Source: Candidatus Zixiibacteriota bacterium
GTDB lineage: Bacteria > Zixibacteria > MSB-5A5 > GN15 > FEB-12
DNA length: 64,000 nucleotides
Direction: 5' to 3'
NCBI GenBank assembly: GCA_040756055.1
Contig: JBFLZR010000002.1
Coordinates: 398,411 to 462,410 of the forward strand
Made by a program: the position numbers and the translations under genes. Below, one piece after another: positions 50,372 to 55,608 of this stretch (within the stretch, counting starts at the first letter, position 1; the number at the start of each line of letters is the position of its first letter). The notes beneath the pieces were generated by a model. It worked only from the letters and a program-made list of their open reading frames with translations, was not told the origin of the DNA and did no database searches.

Positions 50372-51498
50372 GGTATCTATTCCTTTTTTGGACAAAATAG
50401 GTCAGTTAAACGCATGGGTCAATTAGTTTTGTGGTGTCGGCGCGGGGTGTGGGGTCGGTTGTTTTTTTCATGTTCGTTTATTCTTTTATAACCGGTTTGT
50501 GTGGTTTGGGTTCGTTTCCCTATTTTTGATGTTCCTGTGTGTTTTGTTTTGTCGATCATGGTAGGCTCACGCCGCGGCGTGAGCCTACGGACGCGAGTAT
50601 TCCGAACATAGCCATGTCAGGGCCAAAGCAAGTTTGACCCTGCCACCCGATGTGGCCGTCTCAAAAATCTCCAGTATTTCGTTATTCATCATATAATTGC
50701 GCCGATTTGGGTTCGTTTCCTCATTCTTGATGTTGCGTCGGGTCTTGGACTCCGTCAGGAGGTGGTGACCCGATGCGGATCAGGTATAGAGACCGTCAGG
50801 TCACACGACCTGACGGAACGATGCTGAGCTGAGTGCGGAATCCTCTGTATTTCGATATTCATCATTTAATTACAGCAGTTTGGGTTCGTTTCATCATTTT
50901 ATGTAACCCCTCACCCCGGCCCTCTCCCGGAGGGCGAGGGGGAAAGAGGTGTGGCTATGCATTTGATAAATCAAATGCCTACGGGCATGCGTCCGATATC
51001 GTAGGGGTTCAAAATTTTGAACCCCTACGAGGGGTGTATCAGGGCCTAAGCAAGTTTGAGCCTGCCACCCGGATGCGGTCTGTGCGTTGAAAAAGAAAAT
51101 CAGTCCTCCACTTTTCTCTGTATTTCATTCTTCCTCATAATCTTGGAGCAGTTTGGCTTCGTTTCGTTGTTTTGTGTTAATCGCGATCAATTTCCCACCT
51201 GCCGCTGACGCTTTAGGTTGGGGTACCGATCGTCTTGTATACATGCAGGTAAGGGGTTATTTAGTACGGTTTTGTAGTGAAATTGCGCGTGGTTCAGGGT
51301 CTTCGCTGTTGCGGCAGGTCTTGAAGCCTAGAGGGGTTTGTGACCTGCCGGCCAACGAGTTGGGGTGGGTGAAATATTGGTTTCTTGGGGGCGAATATTT
51401 CTTGCCTTTTTGTCATTTTTAGGTATAATTGAGGCCTGCTGAGAGGGCCGCGACGGCATTTTGGCGGATGTTATTTGAAAGCTTGATGATGATCTCTT
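50372..51498. other. 1.1-kb intergenic repeat field
   Basis: No real gene. It holds four boundary motifs (separate entry) and the same palindrome families as the field at 33.7-35.0 kb: GTAGGCTCACGCCGCGGCGT at 50561-50588, GCATTTGATAAATCAAATGC at 50959-50982, GTAGGGGTTCAAAATTTTGA at 51001-51028, CAAGTTTGAGCCTGCCACC-type hairpins at 50618 and 51040, CCGTCAGGTC hairpins near 50786-50820, and a CCCTCTCCC-type palindrome at 50906-50942. The last 300 bp before the tRNA show no feature beyond AT-rich sequence. Confidence 0.75.
50491..51175 (-). repeat. Array 2: four copies of the boundary motif, inverted relative to array 1
   Basis: Read on the plus strand as GTTTGGGTTCGTTTC, copies lie at 50501-50530, 50701-50732, 50875-50903 and 51147-51175. 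Two are preceded by ATTCATCAT-N2-AATT and one by a diverged form, so the conserved unit is about 45-55 bp. Intervals are 200, 171 and 273 bp, each filled with palindromes also found in array 1. Confidence 0.85.
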
Positions 51499-51716: not shown

Positions 51717-51790
51717 GGGGTTGTAGTTCAGTTGGTTAGAACGTCTGCCTGTCACGCAGAAGGCCGCGAGTTCGAGTCTCGTCAACCCCG
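51717..51790 (+). tRNA. tRNA-Asp (anticodon GTC)
   Basis: Acceptor GGGGTTG/CAACCCC, D-arm GTTCAGTTGGTTAGAAC, anticodon stem TCTGC/GCAGA with loop CTGTCAC (GTC), T-arm GCGAGTTCGAGTCTCGT, discriminator G. CCA is not encoded. The accessory island begins at its 3' end. Confidence 0.95.
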
Positions 51791-51873
51791 CTTTTTATTT
51801 GCAGCACGTTATCAAAATAGCGTGGAGGGAATTGCCAAAATGAGACGATCCCACGGCAAGCGGATGGGTCACC
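51788..51873 (+). repeat. Left boundary repeat of the accessory island
   Basis: 51788-51838 matches 56891-56941 at 47 of 51 bases (for example TAGCGTGGAGGGAATTGCCA in both). The match then continues more loosely through a RAYT-family palindrome (51847-51873, GATCCCACGGCAAGC core). It starts on the last three bases of tRNA-Asp. Confidence 0.9.
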
Positions 51874-51980: not shown

Positions 51981-52376
51981 ATGGCAAAGAAAAGAGTATT
52001 TATCAGTTTCGACTATGATCACGACCTAGACTTGAAGAACCTTTTGGTTGGCCAATCTAAGAATGAGGATTCCCCCTTTGAAGTATACGATTTATCAATA
52101 AAGGAAGAACTCTCAGAAGACTGGAAGAAGAAGGCTCGCACAAGGATAAAGGGATGCGACGTAGTTGTCGTCATCTGTGGCGAACATACTGACACGGCGT
52201 CCGGCGTCAGCGCGGAATTGAAGATAGCACAAGAAAGAGAAGTGGATGTCGACTATTTTCTCCTATGGGGACGTAAGGACAAGACCTGCAAGAAACCGAA
52301 AGCAGCGACCGCTGCGGACAAAATCTACAAGTGGACATGGGATAACCTTCAAGCCCTTATTGGCGGTACAAGATAG
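51981..52376 (+). CDS. TIR-like protein of the DUF1863/ThsB type
   Basis: 131 aa. ATG 51981 has AGGAGG 8 bases upstream; an earlier GTG has none. The protein is a single TIR-like domain: KRVFISFDYDHDLDLKNLL opens the first strand and loop, GCDVVVVICGEHT is the third strand, and Glu79 in GVSAELKIAQE is at the position of the catalytic glutamate of NAD-cleaving TIRs. This is the MTH538/DUF1863 branch to which Thoeris ThsB proteins belong; those make cyclic-ADP-ribose signals on infection. Its stop shares one base with the next gene's GTG start, so it is tightly coupled to the caspase-like protease. Confidence 0.85.
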   Translation: MAKKRVFISFDYDHDLDLKNLLVGQSKNEDSPFEVYDLSIKEELSEDWKKKARTRIKGCDVVVVICGEHTDTASGVSAELKIAQEREVDVDYFLLWGRKDKTCKKPKAATAADKIYKWTWDNLQALIGGTR

Positions 52377-53323
52377 TGAGAAGGGCCCTTATAATAGGTG
52401 TTGACAAATATCCTACCAACCCTCTTCGCGGATGTGTCAACGATGCTCAGCGGCTAAGCCGCGTCTTGTCCCGGCATCACGATCAAAACGTCAACTTCCA
52501 ATGTGAGGTTGTAACCGCTCCATCTGACACCGTGACGAGACCAGTTCTACGTCGAAAGATATCAGAATTGTTCGGACAGCCAGCTGACGTAGCCTTCCTG
52601 CACTTTTCCGGACATGGTACTGTGAATGGGCTTGGTGGCTACCTCGTCACGCCGGACTATTGCCAATATGACGTAGGAATTGCCATGGCGGAGGTGCTGG
52701 CCTTAGCAAACCAGTCACCTGTAACAGACATATTTATCACGCTGGATTGCTGCCACAGTGGTGCCTTCGGTACTTTGCCAGCCGTTAGTGACGATAAAAT
52801 TGTACTGGCCGACGGGGTATCAGTAATCACCGCAACACGAACTAACCAAGAAGCTCTAGAGGAAGAAGGTGGTGGTGTATTTACGTCGCTTCTAGTTGAG
52901 GCACTCGAGGGAGGGGCGGCCGGACTTTGCGGCGAGGTGTCGGCGGCGAGCATTTATGCTTACATTGACAATGCTCTTGGTGCATGGGATCAACGTCCCT
53001 TGTTCAAGGCAAATGTGTCTCGTTTCGTAAAGCTTCGTCAGGCGGAGCCCCGCTTACATCCTAGTCTTATCCGAATAATACCTGAATGTTTTCCGCTCCC
53101 AGCAGAACTACTGCCACTATCGCCGGAATATGAACCAGAAGCAAATCCTCACGACGAATGTAAAGAGAAGATATTCGGATACTTACAGAAATTCCGAGAC
53201 GCCGGTCTTGTCAAGCCAGTCGGGGCGGAGCACTTATACCACGCAGCGATGCAAAACAAAGCGTGCCAACTGACGACCTTAGGCAGATACTACTGGCGCC
53301 TAGTGCATGAAAAGAAGATCTAG
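52376..53323 (+). CDS. Caspase-like (C14) protease
   Basis: 315 aa, start GTG 52376 overlapping the TIR gene (TAGTG). Residues 1-225 form a caspase p20-like fold: RRALIIGVDKYP opening, catalytic His80 in HFSGHGT and catalytic Cys126 in DCCHSG, then the substrate-side strand VSVITATRTNQEA. Residues 240-315 are a helical tail, possibly a sensor or winged-helix-like segment. Bacterial caspases are commonly effectors that kill or disable infected cells after a signal. The coupled TIR-like gene makes a TIR-made nucleotide signal the likely trigger, as in the TIR-caspase arrangement described for type IV Thoeris. Confidence 0.88.
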   Translation: MRRALIIGVDKYPTNPLRGCVNDAQRLSRVLSRHHDQNVNFQCEVVTAPSDTVTRPVLRRKISELFGQPADVAFLHFSGHGTVNGLGGYLVTPDYCQYDVGIAMAEVLALANQSPVTDIFITLDCCHSGAFGTLPAVSDDKIVLADGVSVITATRTNQEALEEEGGGVFTSLLVEALEGGAAGLCGEVSAASIYAYIDNALGAWDQRPLFKANVSRFVKLRQAEPRLHPSLIRIIPECFPLPAELLPLSPEYEPEANPHDECKEKIFGYLQKFRDAGLVKPVGAEHLYHAAMQNKACQLTTLGRYYWRLVHEKKI

Positions 53324-53393
53324 TCAGCGAAATCTGGCAGTTCTTGGGTAGTCTATTCATTAGGGCTTGTTGAAAAAGCGTTGATTTTCGGTA

Positions 53394-54362
53394 ATGCGGA
53401 TGAAAGCGGTAAGACTCTTTCAAGTAGGCAACCTTAATGGTATTCAGTTGACGAACTTGGCGGTCAACCTGCGGGCTATTCAAGATCATTTCACTTTTGA
53501 AGTGCATCCGGAGATTCTGGAGCCGCCCTCTGACGGGCAATTAGCTTCGGGAGCCTACTCAGAAGAGTTGCTATTGGAGTTCATCAAGGATCGAATGAGA
53601 TCCGCCACCAGCACAGGATACCCTATCGGGATATGCGAACTTGCTCTTGGCAATGAGGAGCTTTTTCAATGCTCTGACGCAGACGGTGCAATCATCTCTA
53701 TCCACAACTGGAGGCAGAAAGTCACTGGGGATGTCGATCGCTGCCTACAGTTCATTATCGCAGCTTGTCTTCTGGATTTATATAAGGAGATGCCGGTTCA
53801 TGCCATTGCCGACGTTCGGGCGTGCCCTAGCGATTATTGTGACGATCTTGCGGATCTAAAAATCGGATTTCGGCAATCAATGTTCTGTTCGGAATGTCGG
53901 CGGCTCATCATATCGAAACTTGGCATGGATATTCCGCTGGCCGCTTGGGTGGCTGTGCAACGGATTCTGGACAATGCTGCGAACAGGCCGTACTGCTGTA
54001 TCCTAAGTCCTTTTGGGGATGAACTCAAGGAGATTAATGCCTGCATAAGACAGGTCGCGGCCGAAAAGAACTATCTTTGCGAACGAGCCGATGATATCCC
54101 TGGGTCTCGTGATATACTGGAAGTAGTGAAGGAAATGGTTGGAAGGGCTGAGCTCATTATTGCAGTATTGACAAAGGCCAATCCTAATGTTCTGTTTGAA
54201 GTAGGCTATATCTACGGCATAAAAAAAGAAGAGCGAGTAGTCTTACTGTTGCAGAGGGGTGACGAAATTCCGCTCTATTTCAAGGCGCGTCAAGTGCTGC
54301 TTTATGACCCGGTCGTTGATGTATGTGAGCGACTGGGAGGTGCACTGCGGTCATATTTCTGA
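53394..54362 (+). CDS. Protein with zinc-binding domain and C-terminal TIR/deoxyribosyltransferase-like Rossmann domain
   Basis: 322 aa. Residues 1-190 contain Cys144, Cys149, Cys165 and Cys168 (C-x4-C-x15-C-x2-C), a likely zinc site in a zincin-like or unknown domain. Residues 198-322 are a Rossmann-type module: CCILSPFGDEL, then AELIIAVLT, KANPNVLFEVGYIYG and VVLLLQ. The NPNV-x2-E-x-G motif recurs in TIR-like and nucleoside deoxyribosyltransferase-like proteins of defence loci and could bind or cut a nucleotide. The start is ATG 53394 or 53400; no strong ribosome site is seen. It lies 70 bp after the caspase gene, same strand. Confidence 0.7.
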   Translation: MRMKAVRLFQVGNLNGIQLTNLAVNLRAIQDHFTFEVHPEILEPPSDGQLASGAYSEELLLEFIKDRMRSATSTGYPIGICELALGNEELFQCSDADGAIISIHNWRQKVTGDVDRCLQFIIAACLLDLYKEMPVHAIADVRACPSDYCDDLADLKIGFRQSMFCSECRRLIISKLGMDIPLAAWVAVQRILDNAANRPYCCILSPFGDELKEINACIRQVAAEKNYLCERADDIPGSRDILEVVKEMVGRAELIIAVLTKANPNVLFEVGYIYGIKKEERVVLLLQRGDEIPLYFKARQVLLYDPVVDVCERLGGALRSYF

Positions 54363-54462
54363 GAGCATAGTACCTGTGTTGAGGTTTAGGCCGAAATGCC
54401 CCTACGCGGAATCGTTTAACGACGCAGTAATCCAATGTCCCATTTCAATGAATGGAGGTTAT

Positions 54463-55608
54463 ATGTCATTGCTGAAATTTAGGGCCTTTATGAGTTGCAG
54501 TCGCGCTCCGGAAGACAAGTCCATAGTCGAGTTTTTTCGATCTTACTGTGAGTCTTTTGGCTTCGAAGTGCTTATTTACGACTGGCAGGAGCCTGTCCCG
54601 CTTGACGACGGGGTCAAGAGTCAGATCACCAGTGCAGACTGCGTTATAGCAGTTGCAACCCGCAAGGACCGTTTGGATTCTGGTGAGTGGTTCTGCTCGG
54701 ATTGGATTCAGCATGAGGTTGTCTTTGCCAGTGCGATTTGCAAGCCGGTTGTAATCTTTGCCGAACAGGGAGTAAAGGTCGGAGGCCTCTTAGACCGACA
54801 CGAAAGATATCAGCCTTTCTCCAGAGAACCTATGGAATTGCTTAAACAGACGCCCTACTTCAACAAGTTTCTTATGGCTCTGACTAGACAACTTGAAAGC
54901 CAGGCCGTGTATGTCGACGACCCGTCACCTAGCGTTTACCTTAAATCGATCAAGAGTCGGGATGAGTTGGTCTCCCGTGATATATGGACAACTACGTGCG
55001 AAATTGAGTTGCAGTCACTGGTCAACGGCCTGAGCCAGTCCGATGAAGGATTTGGAGATGTGGATTGGCTGCGCTTCCCCTATGAGGCGATACGCGACAT
55101 TGAGTTTTCGGTCCTACAGGCACCACAAGGGACCAACATGAGGCTTGACCACGAGCGTAGTAAGGAGGATCCCAATGTTTGGCGGGTATTGTATGAACCG
55201 CCGCTTCAAATCGGCCAGCAGGTGCAGTATGCCTATCGCTATGTAGCAGAGCGCATTCGGCCTTACACTCTTGAAGAGGCACAGGCCGCCATGGAGGCGA
55301 AAGAGTCTTGGTGCGATTCGCCCCAGTGCACTGTGAACTGGGATATGCTCGTTTCCACAGGACACCTCATTTCCGAGGTGGTCTTCCCGCCGAAATACAA
55401 AATTCACAACCCAGAATGTCTGGTGGAAACTCTTGATACACATCAACCTGTGATAAGCGAACTGGACAGGATCCGAGAGGTTGATGGGTTCAAGATTCAA
55501 CGATTTTATGACAAGTACACTCTTGTGTTATCGGTCCCGAAGCCGCGGATAGGGTTGAGGTACATGTTGACTTGGCGACCACCTTCCGAGGCCGAATTGG
55601 AACGCTAA
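54463..55608 (+). CDS. TIR domain protein with unknown C-terminal domain
   Basis: 381 aa. ATG 54463 has GGAGG 6 bases upstream; in-frame codons before it overlap the previous gene and look non-native. Residues 4-105 are a TIR domain (FRAFMSCSRAPEDKSIVEFF, ADCVIAVATRKD, then WIQHEVVFAS with catalytic-type Glu85). Residues 185-380 form a beta-rich domain I do not recognise (VDWLRFPYEAIRDIEFSV, YEPPLQIGQQVQYAYRYV, VVFPPKYKIHN). The N-terminal TIR suggests NAD cleavage or signalling; the C-terminal part may sense a trigger. It is the last gene of the likely defence cluster. Confidence 0.75.
   Translation: MSLLKFRAFMSCSRAPEDKSIVEFFRSYCESFGFEVLIYDWQEPVPLDDGVKSQITSADCVIAVATRKDRLDSGEWFCSDWIQHEVVFASAICKPVVIFAEQGVKVGGLLDRHERYQPFSREPMELLKQTPYFNKFLMALTRQLESQAVYVDDPSPSVYLKSIKSRDELVSRDIWTTTCEIELQSLVNGLSQSDEGFGDVDWLRFPYEAIRDIEFSVLQAPQGTNMRLDHERSKEDPNVWRVLYEPPLQIGQQVQYAYRYVAERIRPYTLEEAQAAMEAKESWCDSPQCTVNWDMLVSTGHLISEVVFPPKYKIHNPECLVETLDTHQPVISELDRIREVDGFKIQRFYDKYTLVLSVPKPRIGLRYMLTWRPPSEAELER

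Follow-up and report, generated by a model that had tools for sequence, protein, structure and literature searches.

A pseudo-archaemetzincin domain joined to a TIR-like module beside a type IV Thoeris-like TIR-caspase pair

Introduction

One-protein abortive-infection systems are usually laid out with a constant sensor-like domain ahead of effectors that can be exchanged, and many bacterial TIR and SIR2 effectors carry sensor domains of unknown origin. In type IV Thoeris systems, N7-cADPR made by a TIR protein leads to the activation of a protease. These systems have been defined as TIR-caspase combinations (Rousset et al. 2025, Science 387:510, as described in PMC12847820).

Here we describe a run of four genes that opens with a pair of this kind and continues with two additional genes, the first of which encodes a dead metalloprotease domain. 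The nearest precedent found for that domain comes from iSTAND2 conflict systems, whose inactive zincin-like domains (eLife 70394, PMC8195603) are likewise dead and metalloprotease-like and occur in bacterial proteins with a predicted counter-invader role. Compared by the description given there, however, the iSTAND2 domains reside in effectors beside a PUA-STAND protein, and neither an archaemetzincin nor a fusion to TIR or SIR2 figures in the passages on them (PMC8195603).

Results

Genomic context of the four-gene run

The genes lie within the window, by which we mean the whole stretch of 64,000 nucleotides that was analysed. The relevant features are as follows:

51717..51791, + strand: tRNA-Asp(gtc), left edge of the putative island (ARAGORN)
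51981..52376, + strand: gene 1, ThsB-type TIR protein, 131 aa, Glu79 conserved (PF08937, PADLOC ThsB, alignment A3)
52376..53323, + strand: gene 2, caspase-like protease, His80 and Cys126 invariant (PF00656, alignment A6)
53324..53393, + strand: gene 2-gene 3 gap; the motif at 53363-53391 resembles an insertion sequence end
53394..54362, + strand: gene 3, 322 aa, pseudo-archaemetzincin domain plus CAP12-type TIR-like domain
53394..53933, + strand: pseudo-archaemetzincin (M54-derived) domain, gene 3 residues 1-180 (hhalign, Foldseek)
53799..53897, + strand: His136 / Cys144-x2-Asp147 / Cys165-x2-Cys168 motif, preceding HExxH position lost (joint alignment)
53991..54359, + strand: TIR-like C-terminal module of gene 3, residues 200-322, NPNV-x2-E at 54180-54206
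54463..55608, + strand: gene 4, TIR-like domain plus a C-terminal domain with no family match

Genes 3 and 4 occupy the plus-strand positions assigned to them in an earlier note on this DNA, and the gaps of 70 bp (genes 2-3) and 100 bp (genes 3-4) given there are also correct.

The immediate upstream neighbours of the run are a tRNA-Val and a tRNA-Asp. A sister genome from the same genus (G025) has the same left neighbour and the same tRNA-Val/tRNA-Asp pair followed by unrelated genes, and the island is absent there. Furthermore, the DNA of genes 1-4 has no match among the matches listed in G025, G026 and G027. The GC content of the four genes is 46-51%, compared with 54-56% for the flanks. 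Given the tRNA edge, the lower GC content and the absence from the corresponding tRNA locus of the sister genome, the run has the look of an island acquired at a tRNA. Promoter and terminator scans of the run gave results at the level of shuffled sequences. Within the gap ahead of gene 3, the segment 53363-53391 (GGGCTTGTTGAAAAAGC...) contains an exact 16-base match to DNA next to a transposase of the IS1 family in Candidatus Bandiella; neither a partner end for this motif elsewhere in the window nor a genuine second copy in the genome turned up. Left of the tRNAs, a dispersed non-coding repeat (window ~50505-51233) is partly copied at many other places in this genome.

The TIR-caspase pair and its relatives

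Gene 1 matches ThsB_TIR (PF08937) with 30.9 bits, above the cut-off of 21.2, and is called ThsB by PADLOC, which agrees for gene 2 as well, a caspase-like C14 protease (PF00656, E 2e-20). Translation of gene 1 starts at ATG 51981 with a good ribosome site ahead, and that of gene 2 at GTG 52376, overlapping the gene 1 stop. The catalytic residues are present in both proteins: Glu79 of the TIR protein is invariant in alignment A3, as are His80 and Cys126 of the caspase in alignment A6. As judged from sequence, genes 1 and 2 are therefore a catalytically intact TIR-caspase pair resembling type IV Thoeris. As in type IV Thoeris, a small ThsB-type TIR gene directly precedes an adjoining caspase-like gene. 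Unlike that system, the window contains the extra genes 3 and 4, which are missing from related pairs.

To survey such pairs, gene 1 was aligned with three relatives from its phylum and used to scan 84,980 species genomes. The scan gave 288 relatives, of which the best 80 were kept with flanks of up to 6 kb (L069-L148), and a further 14 viral contigs brought the total to 94 ThsB loci. Around the best 80 of 288, a caspase gene is present within 2.5 kb in 41 cases, an 8xMP-type membrane protein in 37, both in none and neither in two. Nothing convincing emerged in these loci from a profile of the gene 3 N-terminus or a search with the gene 4 C-terminus, and genes 3 and 4 occur in 0 of the 80 relatives' available flanks, many of which are short, such that absence is firm only where sequence exists. 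The caspases of the closest relatives of the pair score 517-562 bits, and the one in L069 is 78% identical to gene 2. In L069 and L082, the nearest caspase relatives, genes 3 and 4 are absent from the ~5 kb of downstream sequence, and bare TIR-caspase pairs are present in two genomes of the same phylum as the window (G032 and G059). By these counts genes 3 and 4 are not regular members of a TIR-caspase operon.

The TIR-8xMP (PF24838-like) pair looks like a sister effector choice of this ThsB subfamily. On one of the viral contigs, a ThsB-8xMP pair is followed by a gene (L059:4871-5731) whose product, by eye from the sequence, resembles a DUF4062 TIR-like NADase.

Gene 3 joins a TIR-like module to a degenerate archaemetzincin

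No clear ribosome site precedes gene 3. Its start, MRMK, is common to a relative in L042, and the upstream DNA of the two has nothing in common beyond the first codons. The C-terminal module has relatives in 15 other genomes of the phylum, and the N-terminal half does not have many. The NPNV-x2-E-x-G module that the earlier note had read in this protein is present as NPNVLFEVG (residues 263-271, including Glu269). This motif, together with a weak match over residues 260-288, likens the C-terminus to the CAP12/PCTIR TIR domain (PF10137), although its score of 19.1 bits falls under the curated cut-off of 24.7, and the protein differs from CAP12/PCTIR in having no STING or cyclic-nucleotide receptor domain. 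A weak nucleoside deoxyribosyltransferase match is also under its curated cut-off. PADLOC named nothing firm in genes 3 and 4.

For the N-terminal half there is no model in Pfam (E up to 1), PADLOC, NCBIfam or PHROGs, and a profile search of solved structures with a five-sequence alignment returned chance matches only. A comparison with peptidase family M54 was prompted by the pattern AIISIxxW, H, C-x2-D-F, CxxC. In hhalign, a profile of eight domain sequences aligned with 11 M54 sequences at 92.4% probability (E 5e-7, 159 columns), whereas the same profile reached 0.2% against caspases and 0.1% against ThsB. Furthermore, a five-sequence domain profile retrieved L160 from another phylum (E 0.0015), a genuine M54 protein as confirmed by PF07998 (E 1e-27). 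Fold prediction, a check suggested in the earlier note, was run without templates and gave a model of middling confidence (pLDDT 62.6, pTM 0.59). The top four Foldseek matches to this model in the PDB are the archaemetzincins 2x7m, 3lmc, 3zvs and 4axq, each at probability 1.00, followed by ADAM and snake-venom metzincins, and the result agrees with hhalign on an M54-type metzincin fold.

A joint alignment of the eight domain and 11 M54 sequences shows that the HExxH of the catalytic HExxHxxGxxH motif is missing in all eight domain sequences, which excludes the domain as an M54-type zinc peptidase. In contrast to this loss, the His, Cys144, Asp147 and Cys165-x2-Cys168 are kept in 8/8. Three of the four Cys positions of the structural zinc site of M54 (C-x4-C...CxxC) are retained with a conserved His just ahead, and the domain may keep one structural zinc. 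The region had been described from sequence as Cys4, and Cys 144, 149, 165 and 168 are indeed present, but only C144, C165 and C168, along with H136, are conserved among relatives, so His-Cys3 is the better description.

We conclude that residues 1-180 of gene 3 are a degenerate archaemetzincin without an active site. The domain shares the fold, the AxISxxxL/W strand and the Cys and CxxC positions of archaemetzincins (M54, PF07998). It departs from them in the loss of HExxH in all eight sequences, in having no Pfam match and in heading defence effectors, whereas M54 proteins normally stand alone. A literature search found no paper linking archaemetzincin to TIR, and on archaemetzincin and defense it turned up unrelated papers only; most subscription journals lay outside this search, which is therefore not proof of absence. 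The domain is apparently undescribed. For gene 3, the suggestion in the earlier note of something undescribed is borne out by an N-terminal domain that lacks a database model and is joined to several kinds of defence effector.

Relatives of the domain carry different effectors

A first genome scan with a two-sequence alignment of the domain found nothing. In G101, a relative of the gene 3 N-terminal half has 27% identity over 205 residues (E 1e-12). Profile searches then revealed domain relatives in G074, G064 and G111, and further ones in G637, G612, G985 and G1023; the G064 and G111 matches were weak (E 0.0015 and 0.011) and were later supported by the conserved motif.

What follows the domain varies from locus to locus. 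It is a membrane segment in L042, L043 and L156, a TIR_2 domain in L048 (E 1e-20) and L155 (E 3e-21), a SIR2_2 domain in L158 (E 1e-21), a Mrr-type nuclease in L047 (PF04471, 19.3 bits, just under the cut-off of 21) and nothing in L157, and in the window it is the CAP12-type TIR. An effector-associated domain (EAD) system would place one domain in a core protein and in effectors of the same genome; the genome of the window has only one clear copy, and the other match there has an E-value of 0.24.

Three genomes of the phylum, those of the window, L042 and L048, have a ThsB-type TIR gene no more than ~1.6 kb from the domain. In L042, the ThsB nearest to gene 1 within the phylum (65% identity) is followed by an 8xMP protein, DUF2188 and the domain with its membrane segment, and the contig ends soon after. 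In L048, a tight run consists of ThsB_TIR, a 161-aa gene and the domain-TIR gene. Defence genes cluster in general, and hence this proximity is suggestive, rather than proof, of a shared pathway for the domain and ThsB. The 161-aa protein of L048 (2608-3090, - strand) has no family match.

By tblastn, no relative of the gene 3 N-terminus itself was found in plasmids. One annotated plasmid relative of the domain exists, on the Aliarcobacter plasmid pM830MA (L201 6001-7193). There, the pseudo-archaemetzincin stretch is just upstream of an annotated TIR gene and out of frame with it, and patatin and further TIR genes come after.

Gene 4 and the FxSRPT family

Gene 4 encodes 381 aa from ATG 54463, and the mechanically called open reading frame begins at GTG 54259. 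Residues 5-145 form a TIR-like domain. A TIR_2 match to residues 9-90, at 17.9 bits under the cut-off of 28, covers the Glu85 that the earlier note had picked out, and alignment of the TIR domain with ThsB gave 94% probability. Together with the CAP12-type module of gene 3, this result agrees with the initial impression of three TIR-fold proteins in a four-gene run. The C-terminal domain (residues 146-381), which the earlier note could not name, has no match in Pfam, PADLOC, NCBIfam, PHROGs or the PDB from residue ~146 onwards, and the mean pLDDT of a single-sequence fold model of gene 4 is 33.6.

A homologue of the same length exists in a Desulfuromonadaceae genome (L151:6798-7928, E 1.7e-9, residues 7-374), where the 8 kb read contains no ThsB. 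When the C-terminal domains of the two proteins are aligned alone, the score beats all but one of 2000 shuffles, and their kinship is likely from sequence comparison but not secure. Plasmid (tblastn) and phage collections yielded no relatives of gene 4. A match in G517 was set aside due to three stops.

The TIR domain of gene 4 aligns better with another TIR-like family, which we call FxSRPT (alignment A7; 96.7%, E 4e-10), than with ThsB. Proteins of this family have 160-180 aa and no Pfam match, and occur with caspase and 8xMP partners alike. They are found beside ThsB in nine of the 94 loci, at the following positions:

FxSRPT: L069:1902-2378, L071:5496-5972, L072:1411-1890
FxSRPT: L082:5253-5780, L056:7009-7512, L057:4441-4986
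FxSRPT: L092:5425-5955, L108:6437-6979, L135:7053-7583

The gene is directly upstream of ThsB in all four of the closest relatives of the pair (L069, L071, L072 and L082). Given this position and the affinity of its TIR domain, gene 4 may replace the accessory protein at the opposite end of the run.

Discussion

We favour the view, to which we assign a probability of about 0.6, that the acquired tRNA-Asp island stacks separable units: the TIR-caspase pair, gene 3 as a sensor-effector and gene 4 as an accessory. This stacking is argued from the absence of genes 3 and 4 near the 80 relatives, the bare pairs in the same phylum, the absence of the island in the sister genome and its lower GC content. 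The computed basis of this reading consists of the homologies and the fold, the missing HExxH, the variety of effectors behind one domain and the finding that related pairs lack genes 3 and 4; from it we infer sensing, oligomerisation, NAD hydrolysis and an antiviral function for the proposed units. In the first unit, by homology to type IV Thoeris, the gene 1 TIR enzyme would sense infection and make an NAD-derived signal. That signal would activate the gene 2 protease, resulting in the degradation of cell proteins and shutdown of the cell, as in the account of type IV Thoeris in PMC12847820. The second unit, gene 3, is most likely a one-protein sensor-effector. Its dead archaemetzincin domain might recognize an infection cue through the old peptide-binding cleft or the zinc motif, and recognition could lead to assembly and switch on the C-terminal TIR-like domain to attack NAD or a related nucleotide. 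Gene 4 would act as a TIR-like protein, either accessory or independent, and its C-terminal domain would serve it for recognition. For gene 3, direct sensing appears likelier than reception of a ThsB signal because most of its homologues have no ThsB in the DNA read.

The earlier note had raised the possibility of an expanded Thoeris system, an idea it would have given up if homologues of genes 3 and 4 were routinely found away from the pair. Homologues of both do occur away from it, and the closest pairs and all 80 relatives lack the two genes in their available flanks. A single four-gene system is thus unlikely, and the evidence of separate homologues and of absence from related pairs favours the other option that the note had offered, a second stacked system. 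Nevertheless, the presence of the domain near ThsB-type TIR genes in three genomes counts against stacking as a hint of a shared pathway. In an integrated system, gene 3 (and perhaps gene 4) would be a second effector of the ThsB signal, with one TIR driving both a caspase and a TIR-type effector, and the pseudo-archaemetzincin would be the receptor for a nucleotide produced by the TIR, a role that SLOG and macro domains have in other types of Thoeris. The arrangements in L042 and L048 fit such a scheme, and exchangeable effectors behind one domain are also typical of nucleotide receptors. We nonetheless consider it unlikely, in that the domain is near none of the 80 closer ThsB relatives, the metzincin fold is not a known nucleotide receptor, and L043, L155 and L157 place the domain among housekeeping or unrelated genes without ThsB in the DNA read.

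Somewhat less doubtful is the proposal, confined to gene 4, that this gene is a displaced third component of the first unit that has taken the FxSRPT part and gained a C-terminal domain. The better alignment with FxSRPT than with ThsB and the FxSRPT genes upstream of ThsB in the closest relatives speak for it, but gene 4 sits downstream, behind gene 3, its L151 homologue has no ThsB in the 8 kb read, and the FxSRPT match is at the level of the TIR-fold superfamily. It is quite improbable that mobile elements brought in genes 3 and 4 as passengers, decaying or neutral, with no present defence role. Passengers might be expected from the IS-end-like motif ahead of gene 3, the lack of a clear ribosome site there, TIR scores under curated cut-offs in both proteins and the lack of plasmid or phage relatives for gene 4. 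Against this, both reading frames are intact, the motif residues are kept (Glu269, Glu85 and His-Cys3) and homologues have the same architecture.

The most durable finding is the sensor-like pseudo-archaemetzincin domain in gene 3, a candidate bacterial case of an inactivated enzyme converted into an immune receptor. It is conceivable, with the odds somewhat against it, that the domain defines a new class of bacterial immune receptor, in which an archaemetzincin that has lost its active site provides the sensing part of proteins with interchangeable effector parts (TIR, CAP12-type TIR, SIR2, Mrr-like nuclease or membrane segment) in several phyla and is sometimes wired to ThsB-type TIR signalling. 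Tracing a putative sensor to a known protease fold provides a testable binding surface and a sequence profile with which more defence proteins could be sought. More broadly, ThsB-type TIRs appear central to a mix-and-match neighbourhood that offers a caspase or 8xMP, plus extra TIR-like proteins.

Ordinary archaemetzincins (M54) are near-universal in the phylum, being present in 118 of the 129 genomes searched (e.g. G000:C3:252941-253345).
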